Below are positions 49,677-60,264 of a stretch of DNA of 61,569 nt, piece after piece; within the stretch, counting starts at the first letter, position 1, and every line of letters starts with the position of its first letter. Under the pieces are notes generated by a model. The model was given only the letters and a program-made list of their open reading frames with translations, was not told the DNA's origin and searched no databases. Position numbers and translations under genes: made by a program. This DNA is from Fimbriiglobus sp. (lineage in GTDB: Bacteria; Planctomycetota; Planctomycetia; Gemmatales; Gemmataceae): NCBI GenBank assembly GCA_025351325.1, contig JANXWE010000141.1:1-61569 (forward strand), read 5' to 3'.

Positions 49677-50153
49677 ATGGCTCGGCCGGCGTTCGACTAC
49701 ACTTTGAATTTCAAAACCATCGACTTCCGCCGCCGGCCCGACCTCTACCGGATCGGCAGGGGCGAGCAGGGGGTGCTGGTGGTCGAACCGTACAAGTCCG
49801 AGATCCTGCCGTACTGGCGCTTCAAAACGGTCGCCGAGGCGACGGCGTCGGCGGCCGCCATCGCCGAGCTGTTCCAAGGTTACCTGAAAGCCGAAGACTT
49901 CCCCGGCGCGGACATGGCCCGCAAGTTCCTGCAAATGGGCTGGACGCGGGCGAGGCGGTACGCCAACCACAAGGGCGGACGCAAGTACCACAAGGGAACC
50001 GGCGACGAACTGCCCCGCATCGTCGATGCCGAAAAAGCCGCCGCGGCCGCGGTCTTTTACGCCGAATACGTGGCGGCGAGGGAGGACCCCGAATACCTCC
50101 GCCTAAAGGCCCGACACCAACGGGAGCATGAAGGAGGACGAGGTGTCATTTGA
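49677..50153 (+). CDS. DUF4385 family protein
   Basis: The 158-residue protein fits the DUF4385 pattern: FDYTLNFKTIDFRRRPDLYR, RGEQGVLVVEPYKSEILPYWRFK (given by its ends GEQGVLVVEPYKSE and PYWRFK), FPGADMARKFLQMGWTRARR and KYHKGTGDELP. The family is short and cytosolic with no assigned role. Its 3' end overlaps the remnant on the opposite strand by 8 nt. Confidence 0.75.
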   Translation: MARPAFDYTLNFKTIDFRRRPDLYRIGRGEQGVLVVEPYKSEILPYWRFKTVAEATASAAAIAELFQGYLKAEDFPGADMARKFLQMGWTRARRYANHKGGRKYHKGTGDELPRIVDAEKAAAAAVFYAEYVAAREDPEYLRLKARHQREHEGGRGVI

Positions 50154-55457: not shown

Positions 55458-55483
55458 AAGCCCCGGTGAGGTCACCGGGGCTT
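55458..55483. terminator. strong terminator, shared by both strands
   Basis: A 12-bp perfect stem (aagccccggtga 55458-55469 with tcaccggggctt 55472-55483) closes the short RNA unit; TTCTTAGTTT follows. It spans the stop codon of the convergent EVE gene. Confidence 0.7.
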
Positions 55484-55894
55484 CTTAGTTTCCCCCGCCA
55501 ACTCCAGCACGCGATTCCACAACTCGTCGCCGCACGGCATCACCGATAACCGGGACATCCGGACCAATTCCCACATCTTAAACAACGGGTCGGCTTTGAT
55601 CGTCGCCAACGTAACGGGATGAGCCAATGCCCGCACCGCCTTCACCGGCACGACCACGAGTTTTTCATCGTCCAAGGTTGGATCGGGGCACGCTGTCCCG
55701 GTGATTTCGAGGATGCCGACAATCGCCTTCTCTTTGCCGGTGTGGTAGAAAAACGCCGTGTCGCCCGCTTGGCAGAGCCGCAAATGCTTCAGGGCGAGGG
55801 CATTGGTGATGCCGTCCCAGAGGGTCGCGCCGTCGCCGACGAGATCGGCAAACGAATAGACATCCGGTTCTTGTTTGAAGAGCCAATGGGCCAT
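55472..55894 (-). CDS. EVE-domain protein
   Basis: The 140-residue protein is a complete EVE domain: HWLFKQEPDVYSFADLVGDG at the start, WDGITNALALKHLRLCQAGD, AFFYHTGKEKAIVGILEI, and the conserved PLFKMWELVRMSRLSVMP near the end. EVE domains are YTH/PUA relatives that recognise modified bases in DNA or RNA. It is the last gene of a tight operon (gap 13 nt) with the 707-aa protein, the small protein and the XPB helicase, so it may bring them to modified or damaged DNA. Confidence 0.85.
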   Translation of the reverse strand: MAHWLFKQEPDVYSFADLVGDGATLWDGITNALALKHLRLCQAGDTAFFYHTGKEKAIVGILEITGTACPDPTLDDEKLVVVPVKAVRALAHPVTLATIKADPLFKMWELVRMSRLSVMPCGDELWNRVLELAGETKKPR

Positions 55895-55907
55895 CTGCCG
55901 TTCTCCG

Positions 55908-58031
55908 TCACGCGAACTCGACCTTGATGCCGAGCGACTCTAAAACTTCCTTCAGCGGAGCCAGCTTCGCCTCATCGACGGCGAGCGCCGTGGGTCCGAG
56001 GCGGTCTTCGATGCAGGCTTTCGTAGTCGGCCATTGCATCAACCCGTCGGCGATTTCGGCATTGGGCACTTGCAACACGAGGCGTTTCGTCGCCAGAGAC
56101 GCCGGAACCGCCGGCCCTGAGAGGAACATCCGCCCGGCGGCCGGGATCGCAGCGCCGGTGCGAGCGAAAAACCAAGTGTCGAGGTCGTCGAGTTTCCAAC
56201 CCCCCAGTACGGCCCGCCGCAAGCTTTCGGGAGTCAGCTTGAATCGGCGGACGATTCCGCCGTCGGCGGGCACCGGTTCGGCGAGCCGACCGATCTCCGC
56301 TTCCAGTAGCAAGTCAGTCTGCCCCGCGTCGAGGTTCAGCGTCACACCGTCATCGTCCACCACGATGCACTTCGTCGGCTTGGCTTCGTAATCGCGGTTG
56401 CCGATCAGACGCAAGTTCTTGTAATCCGGGTCGGCGCCATCGGCTCCCAAACCGATCCGATCGGTGATGCGCACCGCAATCATGCCACGGGAAATGGCGA
56501 CATCCAGATCGGCCGGGGAGAGGAACTCCACGAGTGTCGCTGACGAATAGACCGTGATACGTTCGCGTTTGTTCGCCCAGCGCTGCAGCAGATCCATCAC
56601 CGCCGGATGCACCGGCCGGACGCTGTGTTGATTCAGCGTCTGCACCATCCCCGCGAGTGTCAGCCCGGATTCTAAGCCCCGGTAGGTCTGCTCGGCCGTC
56701 AGTTCCATGGTGCAGGCCGGCCCGAGGCTTTTCCAGCGGGCGAAGCGGCTCAACCGGCCGATCAACGTCGGGGTCAGCCCCTGGCGGTAGGCGATGATCT
56801 CGGCGTTCGGCTGCACCATGAGCGTCTGCGGGAAAGCCGGCGCGTCGGGAACTTTCGGGCCACCGGTGAACAGCGACCGACCGAAGGGCGACAGCCGGAT
56901 GAAGCGCCCACCGCGTTCGACCACTTCCACAATCCCGAGGGGATAGAAGACCCCGAATAGCAGGCTCTCGACCCAGGGTGTACCCCGGAGCTGCAGGGCT
57001 TCGGGACTCAAACCATTTTGCCACGAGGGATGGTGCTCCCAGAGCCAGGCCGCCAGCGGTGCCGATTCGCACCATTGACCCGGTTCGGCCTTGGCCAGCA
57101 ACAGCAGGAGCAAAACCGCGGCGGACGGCACCGCGGACAGTTGACCTTCGATCAACCGGTATCCGAGGAGCGGGTCCCACGCTTCGATGCTCGACAGTCC
57201 CGCGATGAGCACGACGAGTTCGTCCGTCAGCGGGCGGTTCGTCGCCGTCCGGGCGGCTTTCGGCAGCGTCAATTCGCCTTCGATGATGGCGAGTTGCTCC
57301 GCACCCAAAGCCCAGAACAAGGTGAGCACGCCGATATCGGGCAGCACAACCAAGTGATCGGCCGGCGCGGCCGCAAGGAGTTCGTGCGTTTGCAGCCGTT
57401 GCAGATCGCGCTTGAAGAGTGCCCGCAATTGCGTGGTGCGCATGGCCCCATCGGCGACGAGTTGCCCCACGGCCGCCAAGCGGAGCGGCCATTCCAACCC
57501 GTCGGCGATGCGCGGCGTGTCCGACTTCGACGGGCCTTCGGGCGACGCCAAGTTCGGCAATCCGAGCGGCTCATCTTTGGCGCGGGCCGCCACGCCGGGC
57601 AACGTGAACACCTCGGCATTCGGGTACGGTTCTTGGCCGAGCCACTGCTGGAACCCGTTCAACGGACTGCCGACGAACTCGCGCACGGGGAAGAGCAACC
57701 CGGCGTCGAGCAGCGATTGAATCGGCGCGAACCCCTCGGTGCTCCCGAGCGCGGCGAGCATCGTCAGCAAGTGGCCGACTTTCCAGACAGGCTGGCGCGA
57801 TTGGCCGAGAATCGCCAAAAGTGCCCGCCCCGGTGCCGTTCGATCGGCGATGCGGCGATCCACCACCGGCGGATTGCCGAGCGTGGCCAAAATGCGTTCG
57901 GTGAGTTCTTCGATGGGGATGGGGTTGCGCGGCTTGAGCAGCGTCCCCGCCACCGCCCGGCGCAGCGTCTCCGAGTAGCCGTCCAGGGCCTGCCGGGCGC
58001 GTTCCATCCAGTCGTCGGGTTCGTTGGGCAT
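55908..58031 (-). CDS. Hel_C_3/XPB N-terminal-like protein
   Basis: The 707-residue protein has no P-loop. Its C-terminal region resembles the XPB/Ssl2 N-terminal or Hel_C_3 family (FPQTLMVQPNAEIIAYRQGL and, later, SATLVEFLSPADLDVAISR; LVLQVPNAEIADGLMQ). In Actinobacteria and some other bacteria such proteins lie next to XPB-type helicases, as here. The N-terminal 450 residues are helical with winged-helix-like segments. It probably forms a complex with the XPB helicase two genes upstream and may bind DNA. Gaps of 20 and 13 nt to its neighbours support one operon. Confidence 0.7.
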   Translation of the reverse strand: MPNEPDDWMERARQALDGYSETLRRAVAGTLLKPRNPIPIEELTERILATLGNPPVVDRRIADRTAPGRALLAILGQSRQPVWKVGHLLTMLAALGSTEGFAPIQSLLDAGLLFPVREFVGSPLNGFQQWLGQEPYPNAEVFTLPGVAARAKDEPLGLPNLASPEGPSKSDTPRIADGLEWPLRLAAVGQLVADGAMRTTQLRALFKRDLQRLQTHELLAAAPADHLVVLPDIGVLTLFWALGAEQLAIIEGELTLPKAARTATNRPLTDELVVLIAGLSSIEAWDPLLGYRLIEGQLSAVPSAAVLLLLLLAKAEPGQWCESAPLAAWLWEHHPSWQNGLSPEALQLRGTPWVESLLFGVFYPLGIVEVVERGGRFIRLSPFGRSLFTGGPKVPDAPAFPQTLMVQPNAEIIAYRQGLTPTLIGRLSRFARWKSLGPACTMELTAEQTYRGLESGLTLAGMVQTLNQHSVRPVHPAVMDLLQRWANKRERITVYSSATLVEFLSPADLDVAISRGMIAVRITDRIGLGADGADPDYKNLRLIGNRDYEAKPTKCIVVDDDGVTLNLDAGQTDLLLEAEIGRLAEPVPADGGIVRRFKLTPESLRRAVLGGWKLDDLDTWFFARTGAAIPAAGRMFLSGPAVPASLATKRLVLQVPNAEIADGLMQWPTTKACIEDRLGPTALAVDEAKLAPLKEVLESLGIKVEFA

Positions 58032-58051
58032 TCATCTACTGTACGGGGAGG

Positions 58052-58282
58052 TTACTTTCCTACCACTTGCGGTGTGTGGCCCATTTTGATCAGCTCTTCC
58101 AGAACCGCCTCGATGCGGCCCGGTCGGATGAGCAAAGCCCGTTCCGAGAGCCGGCCGAGCACCTCCCCCGCAAGCTTCTTGCGCGCGAGCAATTCCTCCG
58201 CCAGCACCGCATCTTCGGTGAGCACGAGGCACACCCGCCGATGCAATTTGACCGCCATCCGCGCCGGAACTGCTTGCGACAT
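58052..58282 (-). CDS. small basic protein of the XPB operon
   Basis: A 76-residue protein from the ATG at 58282, with TTGGAG 5 nt upstream. It is basic and helical: MAVKLHRRVCLVLTEDAVLA, AEELLARKKLAGEVLGRLSE, ALLIRPGRIEAVLEELIKMGH. It has no known domain. It sits between the XPB helicase (53-nt gap) and the 707-aa protein (20-nt gap) and is probably a small subunit of the same complex. Confidence 0.65.
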   Translation of the reverse strand: MSQAVPARMAVKLHRRVCLVLTEDAVLAEELLARKKLAGEVLGRLSERALLIRPGRIEAVLEELIKMGHTPQVVGK

Positions 58283-58335
58283 TCTTGCTCCAAGGGCAGT
58301 GAATAGTCCGAAAAATGCATTCTGGCCACTGATCA

Positions 58336-60264
58336 CTAGCCACTGACCACTGCTACTGCTTTCTTCAACGATTGAAGTACTTCGCGTTCATCCAAGATGT
58401 CGTAGGTGTAGCCCTGTTCGGTGAGGAACATCTGCCGGTGGTGGGCGAAATCGAGTTCGCGGGTGTCGCGCGTCACCAGAGTGAAGAAGTGGGCGTCGCC
58501 GTCGCCGGTGCTCTTCGGTCGCAAGATCCGCCCGAGCCGCTGGGCTTCTTCCTGCCGGCTGCCGAACGTCCCGCTCACTTGGATCAGCACGTTGGCATCG
58601 GGCAAGTCGATGGCGAAGTTCCCCACCTTGGACAGCACCATGTGCCGGACGGTGCCGGTGCGGAACTTCCCGTACAAATCCTCGCGGTCTTTGCTCGGTG
58701 TCGAACCGGTGATCAGCGGCAGATCGAAGCGCTTGGCGATGTTCCGCAACTGCGCCAAGTACTGCCCGATGATGAGCACCCGCTGATCCTTGTACTGCTC
58801 GAGTAGTTCCGCGATGACCTCGTCTTTGCCGACGTTCTCCGAGGCGATGCGGTACTTGTGCCGCCAATCGGCGACGGCGTATTCCATTCGGGTCTTGTCA
58901 TCCGGCAGCGCCACGCGGATTTCCGTGCAGCTCGCCGAGGCGATCCACCCTTTCGTTTCCAGTTCGCGCCAGGGCACGTCGTATTTCTTCGGGCCGATGA
59001 GGGTGAACACGTCCCCTTCCCGACCGTCCTCACGGATCAACGTGGCCGTCAACCCGAGCCGGCGACGGGCCTGAATTTGCGCCGTCACCCGGAAGACCGG
59101 TGCCGGAAGAAGGTGGACTTCGTCGTAAATGATCAGCCCCCAATCGCGCTGCTCGAAGATGCCGAAGTGTGGGTAGTCCGAAAGCTTCGGCGCGGCACTC
59201 ACTCCGTCGTCCGGCTCTTCGATGTCCGGCATCGGCGTCCACGCGGCCGTGGCGTAAGCCTCTTCGTCGCTCACCGCCAGCATGCCGGTGTCATCGCCTT
59301 CGTCGGCCTCTTCGACGGTACTCGCTTTTTTGCGTTTCTTGCCGGGGCGATAAGTCACGATCTGGTAGGTCGCCACCGTCACGTTGCCGATCTCTTTGAT
59401 CTCGCCGGTGTACTCTTTCACCTGCTCCGGGGTCAAGTCGGTCTTGTCCAAAATCTCGCGCACCCACTGCTTCACCGCCGTGATGCTCGTGGTCAGTACC
59501 AAGGTGTTCTTTTGCAGCAGCGACATCGCCACGATGCCGACGATGGTTTTCCCGGCCCCGCACGGCAGCACGATCACCCCCGAACCGCCGCGGACATCGC
59601 CACCCGCGTAGAACACGTCGGCCGATTCGCGCTGGTAATCCCGCACGGTGAACGGCACGCCGGACGTGGCAATTTCACGCAGGGCAATCGGCAAGGCCGC
59701 GCCTTCGGTGTAGCCGGCCAAGTCCTCGGCCGGATAACCGACGAGAATGAGCGACTGCTTCAAGATCCCCCGGTGCAGCGGGTTGACCCCGAAGCCGTCC
59801 TCGAACTTCTCGCCGAGGTAGTCTTTGAGCTTCTTGTTCCGGGCCAGCTCGGCGAGCAACGGTTTGTCGGTGCAGACGAGCTTCATCTCCCCGTCTTCGA
59901 GCCGTACCAGAGTCACCCGGCCGTACCGGCTGACCGTCTCGGTGAGGTCGGCCGACAGATTGCTCGGCAGCGGGAACTTGGTGAAGCGCTGGAGCACGTC
60001 GACCATTTCCTGGGCCGTCATCCCGGCCGCCGCGGCGTTCCACAGCGAGAGATTGCTGACGCGGTAGGTGTGGATGTGCTCGGGGCTTTTTTCCAACTCC
60101 GCGAACGGGGCCAGCGCGTCGCGGGCCTCGGCGTACTTGGGGTTATCGACTTCGACGAGGATCGACCGATCGGCCTGCACGATCAGCGGATTGGTCGGAT
60201 CGAAACTCATCGCATTCGCGGCGGGGGCCGACGGGGCCGGGGTGGTCTTCAGTTTCGGTGGCAT
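58336..60264 (-). CDS. XPB-type DNA helicase
   Basis: About 642 residues from the ATG at 60264, with AAGG upstream. An N-terminal damage-recognition-like region (about 15-240) is followed by an SF2 helicase core: motif I LPCGAGKTIVG, motif II IIYDEVHLL (a DEVH box), motif III LTATLIRED, and motif VI EEAQRLGRILRP. An insert of about 65 residues rich in Lys, Glu and Asp separates motifs Ia and II. Bacterial XPB unwinds DNA 3'-5', and archaeal and eukaryotic relatives act in nucleotide excision repair. It is first in the operon that ends with the EVE protein. Confidence 0.9.
   Translation of the reverse strand: MPPKLKTTPAPSAPAANAMSFDPTNPLIVQADRSILVEVDNPKYAEARDALAPFAELEKSPEHIHTYRVSNLSLWNAAAAGMTAQEMVDVLQRFTKFPLPSNLSADLTETVSRYGRVTLVRLEDGEMKLVCTDKPLLAELARNKKLKDYLGEKFEDGFGVNPLHRGILKQSLILVGYPAEDLAGYTEGAALPIALREIATSGVPFTVRDYQRESADVFYAGGDVRGGSGVIVLPCGAGKTIVGIVAMSLLQKNTLVLTTSITAVKQWVREILDKTDLTPEQVKEYTGEIKEIGNVTVATYQIVTYRPGKKRKKASTVEEADEGDDTGMLAVSDEEAYATAAWTPMPDIEEPDDGVSAAPKLSDYPHFGIFEQRDWGLIIYDEVHLLPAPVFRVTAQIQARRRLGLTATLIREDGREGDVFTLIGPKKYDVPWRELETKGWIASASCTEIRVALPDDKTRMEYAVADWRHKYRIASENVGKDEVIAELLEQYKDQRVLIIGQYLAQLRNIAKRFDLPLITGSTPSKDREDLYGKFRTGTVRHMVLSKVGNFAIDLPDANVLIQVSGTFGSRQEEAQRLGRILRPKSTGDGDAHFFTLVTRDTRELDFAHHRQMFLTEQGYTYDILDEREVLQSLKKAVAVVSG

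Follow-up and report, generated by a model that had tools for sequence, protein, structure and literature searches.

In eukaryotes, the XPB helicase (ERCC3/Ssl2) of transcription factor IIH (TFIIH) forms a sub-module with p52 (GTF2H4/Tfb2) and p8 (GTF2H5/Tfb5). Human p52 stimulates the XPB ATPase, its clutch domain (residues 306-399) binds the XPB N-terminal domain (NTD) and shares the fold of that domain, its C-terminal domain (CTD) binds p8, and the p8-p52 pair cradles the second RecA domain (RecA2) of XPB (Greber et al., PMC6422496). Archaea are said to lack a TFIIH-like complex (PMC7672443), and p52 homologues were stated as not known in bacteria in a 2012 study of Mycobacterium tuberculosis XPB (PMC3353954), which is why bacterial XPB has so far been treated as a lone helicase. 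According to a 2026 review, what XPB does in archaea and bacteria is still elusive (PMC13024598), and no description of a bacterial p52 or p8 turned up in the literature searched, a scope outside which most subscription papers and all preprints fall. Here we describe a locus of the planctomycete Fimbriiglobus sp. (GCA_025351325.1; 5.1-Mb draft genome) on contig JANXWE010000141.1; the 61,569 nucleotides of this contig were analyzed as a whole and are referred to as the window. The locus encodes an XPB helicase, a 76-amino-acid protein and a 707-amino-acid partner protein, a three-gene cassette that probably corresponds, in bacteria, to the XPB-p52-p8 sub-module, with a likely use in DNA repair.

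A fourth gene, encoding an EVE-domain protein, follows the cassette. All four genes lie on the minus strand with gaps of 53, 20 and 13 nucleotides, and the open reading frame (ORF) positions and spacing given by an earlier sequence-only reading of this DNA were confirmed. That reading joined the four genes into one operon, possibly for repair or defense acting on modified or damaged DNA, and it overlooked the main point, the resemblance of the partner and the small protein to p52 and p8. The genes and domains are as follows:

58336-60264, minus strand: XPB/Rad25-type helicase, 642 amino acids, eukaryote-like (NF045503, TIGR00603, motifs and Protein Data Bank [PDB] matches)
59722-60186, minus strand: NTD of XPB, residues 27-181, Helicase_C_3 (PF13625, E 7.8e-38; profile A9)
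58052-58282, minus strand: 76-amino-acid protein, probably p8/Tfb5-like (cassette conservation; Tfb5 as best natural PDB match; AF2 model and Foldseek)
55908-58031, minus strand: 707-amino-acid p52/Tfb2-like partner (profiles A1 and A8)
56577-56852, minus strand: predicted clutch domain of the partner, residues 394-485 (alignment to human p52 starts at its residue 304; PF13625 match at 404-507)
56397-56576, minus strand: partner residues 486-545, predicted p8-binding-type domain (aligned with the p52 CTD to human p52 residue 454; weak Tfb2_C matches)
55911-56396, minus strand: partner residues 546-707, extra C-terminal unit (hhalign matches to the XPB NTD and the 76-amino-acid protein; no p52 counterpart)
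55472-55894, minus strand: EVE-domain gene, last of the run and outside the conserved unit (Pfam EVE, E 2.7e-34)

We surveyed gene neighborhoods by locating partner orthologues in relatives and seeking all four window proteins in up to 15 kb around each. A partner orthologue is present in 49 of 59 related genomes. Across 48 relative loci, XPB, the small gene and the partner occur together in 32, the small gene and partner occur with no XPB nearby in 8, and the partner stands alone in the remaining 8, several of which are at contig ends. Wherever all three are close together (33 loci, the window counted), they follow the order XPB, small gene, partner on one strand without exception. Furthermore, loci anchored on XPB have the small gene within 1.5 kb in 23 of 30 cases, and every readable strong match to the small-protein profile in other Planctomycetota classes adjoins XPB, the partner or both. 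The small gene is present in all 11 genomes tested for it, including ones where it does not adjoin the partner; in G035 and G009 it sits beside XPB, while G029 and G039 retain all three genes although none lies close to another. Among 15 genomes of the class, the 7 with an XPB above the cut-off are exactly the 7 with both partner and small gene, and none of the 8 without the partner has such an XPB, a pattern that follows clades and so represents few independent events. A contig scan with one single protein as query reached just three close relatives. The cassette and the co-occurrence of its members, both computed directly, strongly support a conserved unit of three genes, XPB, small gene and partner.

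The cassette XPB scores above the cut-offs of both NF045503 repair_heli_XPB (827.6 versus 610 bits) and TIGR00603 rad25 (333.6 versus 328.7 bits), with Walker A CGAGKT at residue 235, DEVH at 381, RED at 411 and motif VI GRILR at 578. By sequence it is far closer to eukaryotic Rad25/XPB than to archaeal XPB, with PDB E-values of 3e-81 for yeast Rad25 versus 6e-40 for archaeal XPB. A profile of its NTD (A9), used as a reverse control, gave significant PDB matches to eukaryotic XPB only (1.4e-17) and none to p52, so that this domain corresponds to the p52-binding NTD of human XPB.

The partner matches Pfam Helicase_C_3 (PF13625) with an E-value of 1.4e-12 over residues 404-507. A profile of 35 partners (A1) was searched against 177,635 PDB sequences, and all six sequences below E 0.03 are p52/Tfb2 (3.6e-4 to 0.028). 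With a profile restricted to partner residues 388-548 and built from wider sampling (A8), the six best PDB sequences are again all p52/Tfb2 (1.1e-6 to 1.9e-5), with the eukaryotic XPB NTD coming next (0.0034-0.016), which sets the partner clutch apart from the XPB NTD. The A8 alignment is one hidden Markov model stretch colinear with residues 304-454 of human p52 (462 residues) and therefore spans both the clutch and the p8-binding CTD, the latter following directly after the clutch and forming the weaker half. The Pfam Tfb2 model (PF03849) matches 5 of the 35 partners (best E 2.3e-4), and 9 of the 17 places with weak Tfb2_C (PF18307) matches in searches of whole genomes are the partner gene, as counted from coordinates. 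The homology of the partner clutch and CTD to p52/Tfb2, computed directly like the separate identity of the XPB NTD, is well supported by these profile comparisons.

For the 76-amino-acid protein, which has no family match in Pfam and NCBIfam scans, the idea of a p8-like identity was set before the structure searches. The five top PDB sequences for its profile (A2) are Tfb5 (E 0.012-0.02), and after small proteins of other planctomycete classes and of Deinococcus were added (A5), Tfb5 is the best natural protein in the PDB, with an E-value of 0.0064 over 49 residues. Designed TIM barrels that outscore Tfb5 in the A5 and partner C-terminus searches were rejected as repeat artifacts, each being four weak matches summed with individual E-values (i-E) above 30. 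An AlphaFold2 (AF2) model from four sequences (mean predicted local distance difference test [pLDDT] 76.6) predicts a beta-alpha-beta-beta-alpha-beta succession, with a strand at 17-20, a helix at 25-34, strands at 41-46 and 49-52, a helix at 57-66 and a strand at 72-74. In this model the protein has the size and the beta-alpha-beta-beta-alpha layout of p8/Tfb5, a stand-alone protein of about 70 amino acids. When the model was compared by Foldseek with 350,542 chains, yeast Tfb5 (5oqj_5) came out on top (E 0.028) and 3dgp_B fifth. The profile of the partner C-terminus, although that unit is p8-like, does not reach Tfb5 in the PDB, and the likeness of the small protein to Tfb5 is therefore not simply a likeness of the wider family. 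Weak Pfam Tfb5 matches in searches of whole genomes lie in cassette genes at 2 of 8 places. Taken with the model, the profile matches indicate that the 76-amino-acid protein is probably p8/Tfb5-like.

Several results weigh against these assignments. The best Pfam scores stay below the cut-offs for Tfb2 (20.6 versus 34.5 bits) and Tfb2_C (16.9 versus 23.2), which is why the partner is termed p52-like here rather than being assigned to Tfb2, and the Tfb5 cut-off (PF06331) is not reached either, the best single member having an E-value of 0.059. A profile of partner residues 1-390 (A6) gave no p52 winged helix and no significant PDB match, the AF2 model of the partner from four input sequences is poor (pLDDT 39), and the extra C-terminal unit at residues 546-707 is absent from p52. 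In the case of the small protein, the predicted fold is the common ferredoxin-like one, with many unrelated chains tying at Z of about 6 (VIA-align), the Tfb5 E-values are just 0.006-0.02, and human p8 itself is unmatched in these searches. With Tfb5 scores this modest, the three genes could cooperate in much the same way while owing their likeness to p52 and p8 to separate events, namely duplication of an XPB NTD-type domain within bacteria rather than common descent. Duplications clearly occurred, since mutual resemblance connects the XPB NTD, the 76-amino-acid protein and the C-terminal unit of the partner: hhalign gives the partner C-terminal unit a probability of 94.5 with the XPB NTD, and the partner C-terminal end one of 90.7 with the 76-amino-acid protein (94.7 with the wider family), while the 76-amino-acid protein also weakly resembles the end of the XPB NTD. 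We nevertheless consider separate origin unlikely, because p52 matches the partner clutch and CTD better than any XPB does, by more than 3 orders of magnitude in E-value (1.1e-6 versus 0.0034 for A8), and because the NTD of the cassette XPB finds its nearer relative in eukaryotic XPB and has no p52 match. Given this reciprocal specificity of the profiles, the split between XPB and p52 seems older than the split between the bacterial and eukaryotic versions of these genes.

With a counterpart of the XPB-p52-p8 sub-module as the favored identity, the 707-amino-acid protein would act as a p52-like scaffold whose clutch (about residues 394-485) pairs with the homologous XPB NTD. By analogy with TFIIH, its domain at about residues 486-545 may dimerize with the p8-like protein, and the two together may form a cradle for RecA2 of XPB and stimulate ATP-driven DNA opening. 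As in TFIIH, XPB has a homologous NTD, the partner has a clutch and a p8-binding domain colinear with those of p52, and the third protein, of about 70 amino acids, is most like Tfb5. Unlike in TFIIH, the genes form a bacterial operon, and the partner is longer: it bears an additional unit at its C-terminus, and no p52 winged helices were detected in its N-terminal half. Repair, in which damaged or stalled DNA would be opened, is the likeliest role, though one that we infer and that nothing in the window proves. The module might instead serve mainly transcription, by opening promoters or rescuing RNA polymerase that has stalled, given that the XPB module of TFIIH serves both transcription and repair (PMC6422496) and that the gene neighborhood here points to neither. 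A mainly transcriptional role strikes us as rather improbable, as patchy presence within the class argues against an essential basal factor. Bacterial RNA polymerase also needs no help to open most promoters.

If the identification as an XPB-p52-p8-like set is true, bacterial XPB gains its missing activators, which might explain why M. tuberculosis XPB, once purified, had to be present in large excess to unwind DNA, and a minimal three-protein model becomes available for a complex in which defects lead to xeroderma pigmentosum, Cockayne syndrome and trichothiodystrophy in humans. The TFIIH motor module may then have an earlier origin and a wider distribution than has been assumed, and the bacterial set would be a testable starting point for the origin of part of TFIIH. 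Whether the eukaryotic motor module descends from such a bacterial operon, or from an older module shared with it, and bacteria still use the free-standing DNA-opening machine, is a more tentative proposal, conceivable but short of probable.

The EVE gene does not belong to the conserved unit. The trio of XPB, small protein and Helicase_C_3 partner is conserved far beyond chance; the fourth member of the operon drawn by the sequence-only reading adjoins the cassette in none of the 48 relative loci, and in 0 of 30 when loci are anchored on XPB, an outcome that this reading had itself named as refuting its proposal. EVE itself is common in the order, being present in 33 of 41 related genomes searched (the window genome counted), and in relatives it sits elsewhere than the cassette, for example 3.6 Mb away from the partner in the closed genome G004. 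In the nearest relative, the ORFs that come after the cassette read by eye like rpsB and tsf. With orthologues this far off and no adjacency in relatives, EVE is not part of the unit, its link to the cassette is local, and the neighborhood survey rules it out as a cassette member. An XPB-EVE operon devoted to defense or to repairing modified DNA, in which EVE would read the base modification, has in its favor the shared strand and the 13-nucleotide gap; against the survey, the remote orthologues, closed genomes included, and the rpsB- and tsf-like ORFs of the nearest relative, it is highly improbable. None of the PADLOC defense families fits the window proteins, with just partial matches to the XPB helicase domain (e.g., PbeA and GajB), and a defense system was ruled out on that ground. 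The repair half of the earlier proposal is plausible, while its defense and modified-DNA half finds no support.

Beyond planctomycetes, the distribution of XPB with the partner looks broad. Three Deinococcus plasmids carry XPB, a protein of 99-115 amino acids (small-protein profile about 1e-14) and the partner (1e-33 to 1e-39), while a Paenibacillus plasmid has XPB and the partner with no small gene. In Actinobacteria, plasmids included, a partner-like protein lies near XPB, with no small p8-like gene in the two annotated loci examined; these bacteria include M. tuberculosis, whose XPB, a 3'-5' helicase, likewise has a eukaryote-like NTD (PMC3353954). A p8-like gene was thus found in two phyla, other phyla having had no systematic search. 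As a separate observation, partner-like proteins from some planctomycetes of other classes (L105 1411-3141 and L106) have their own C-terminus matching the small-protein profile, and in L106 the partner-like ORF precedes XPB.

The archaeal pair of XPB and Bax1 resembles the cassette in that XPB is paired with a dedicated partner, but Bax1 is a nuclease (DUF790). The same genome encodes such a pair separately, with a shorter, archaeal-type XPB (474 amino acids) followed on one strand by Bax1 (DUF790, E 1.7e-90) about 1 kb away (L170 2414-6118, G000:C329). A Bax1-type pair was therefore ruled out as the identity of the cassette, Bax1 being located with another XPB. Bax1 is present in 10 of the 21 genomes searched (the window genome counted). 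Helicase_C_3 occurs in this genome in the cassette only; of these two XPBs, therefore, the one that has a clutch-type NTD goes with a clutch-bearing partner, and the one that lacks such an NTD goes with Bax1. A viral origin was also rejected: viral contigs hold no relatives of the partner or the small protein, and phage matches are almost all distant helicases. The exception is a 9-kb record named "Bacteriophage sp." (H37, MT836665.1 7730-9223) that encodes most of an XPB at 46% identity and probably represents DNA of bacterial origin or else a carried gene.

In the window, scans for promoters and terminators gave nothing exceeding chance, and no RNA families were found. An 11-bp perfect inverted repeat at 55458-55483 spans the EVE stop codon and has no clear T run; it is possibly a transcript 3' end. 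Elsewhere in the window, positions 49677-50153 encode a DUF4385 protein (E 1.1e-62).
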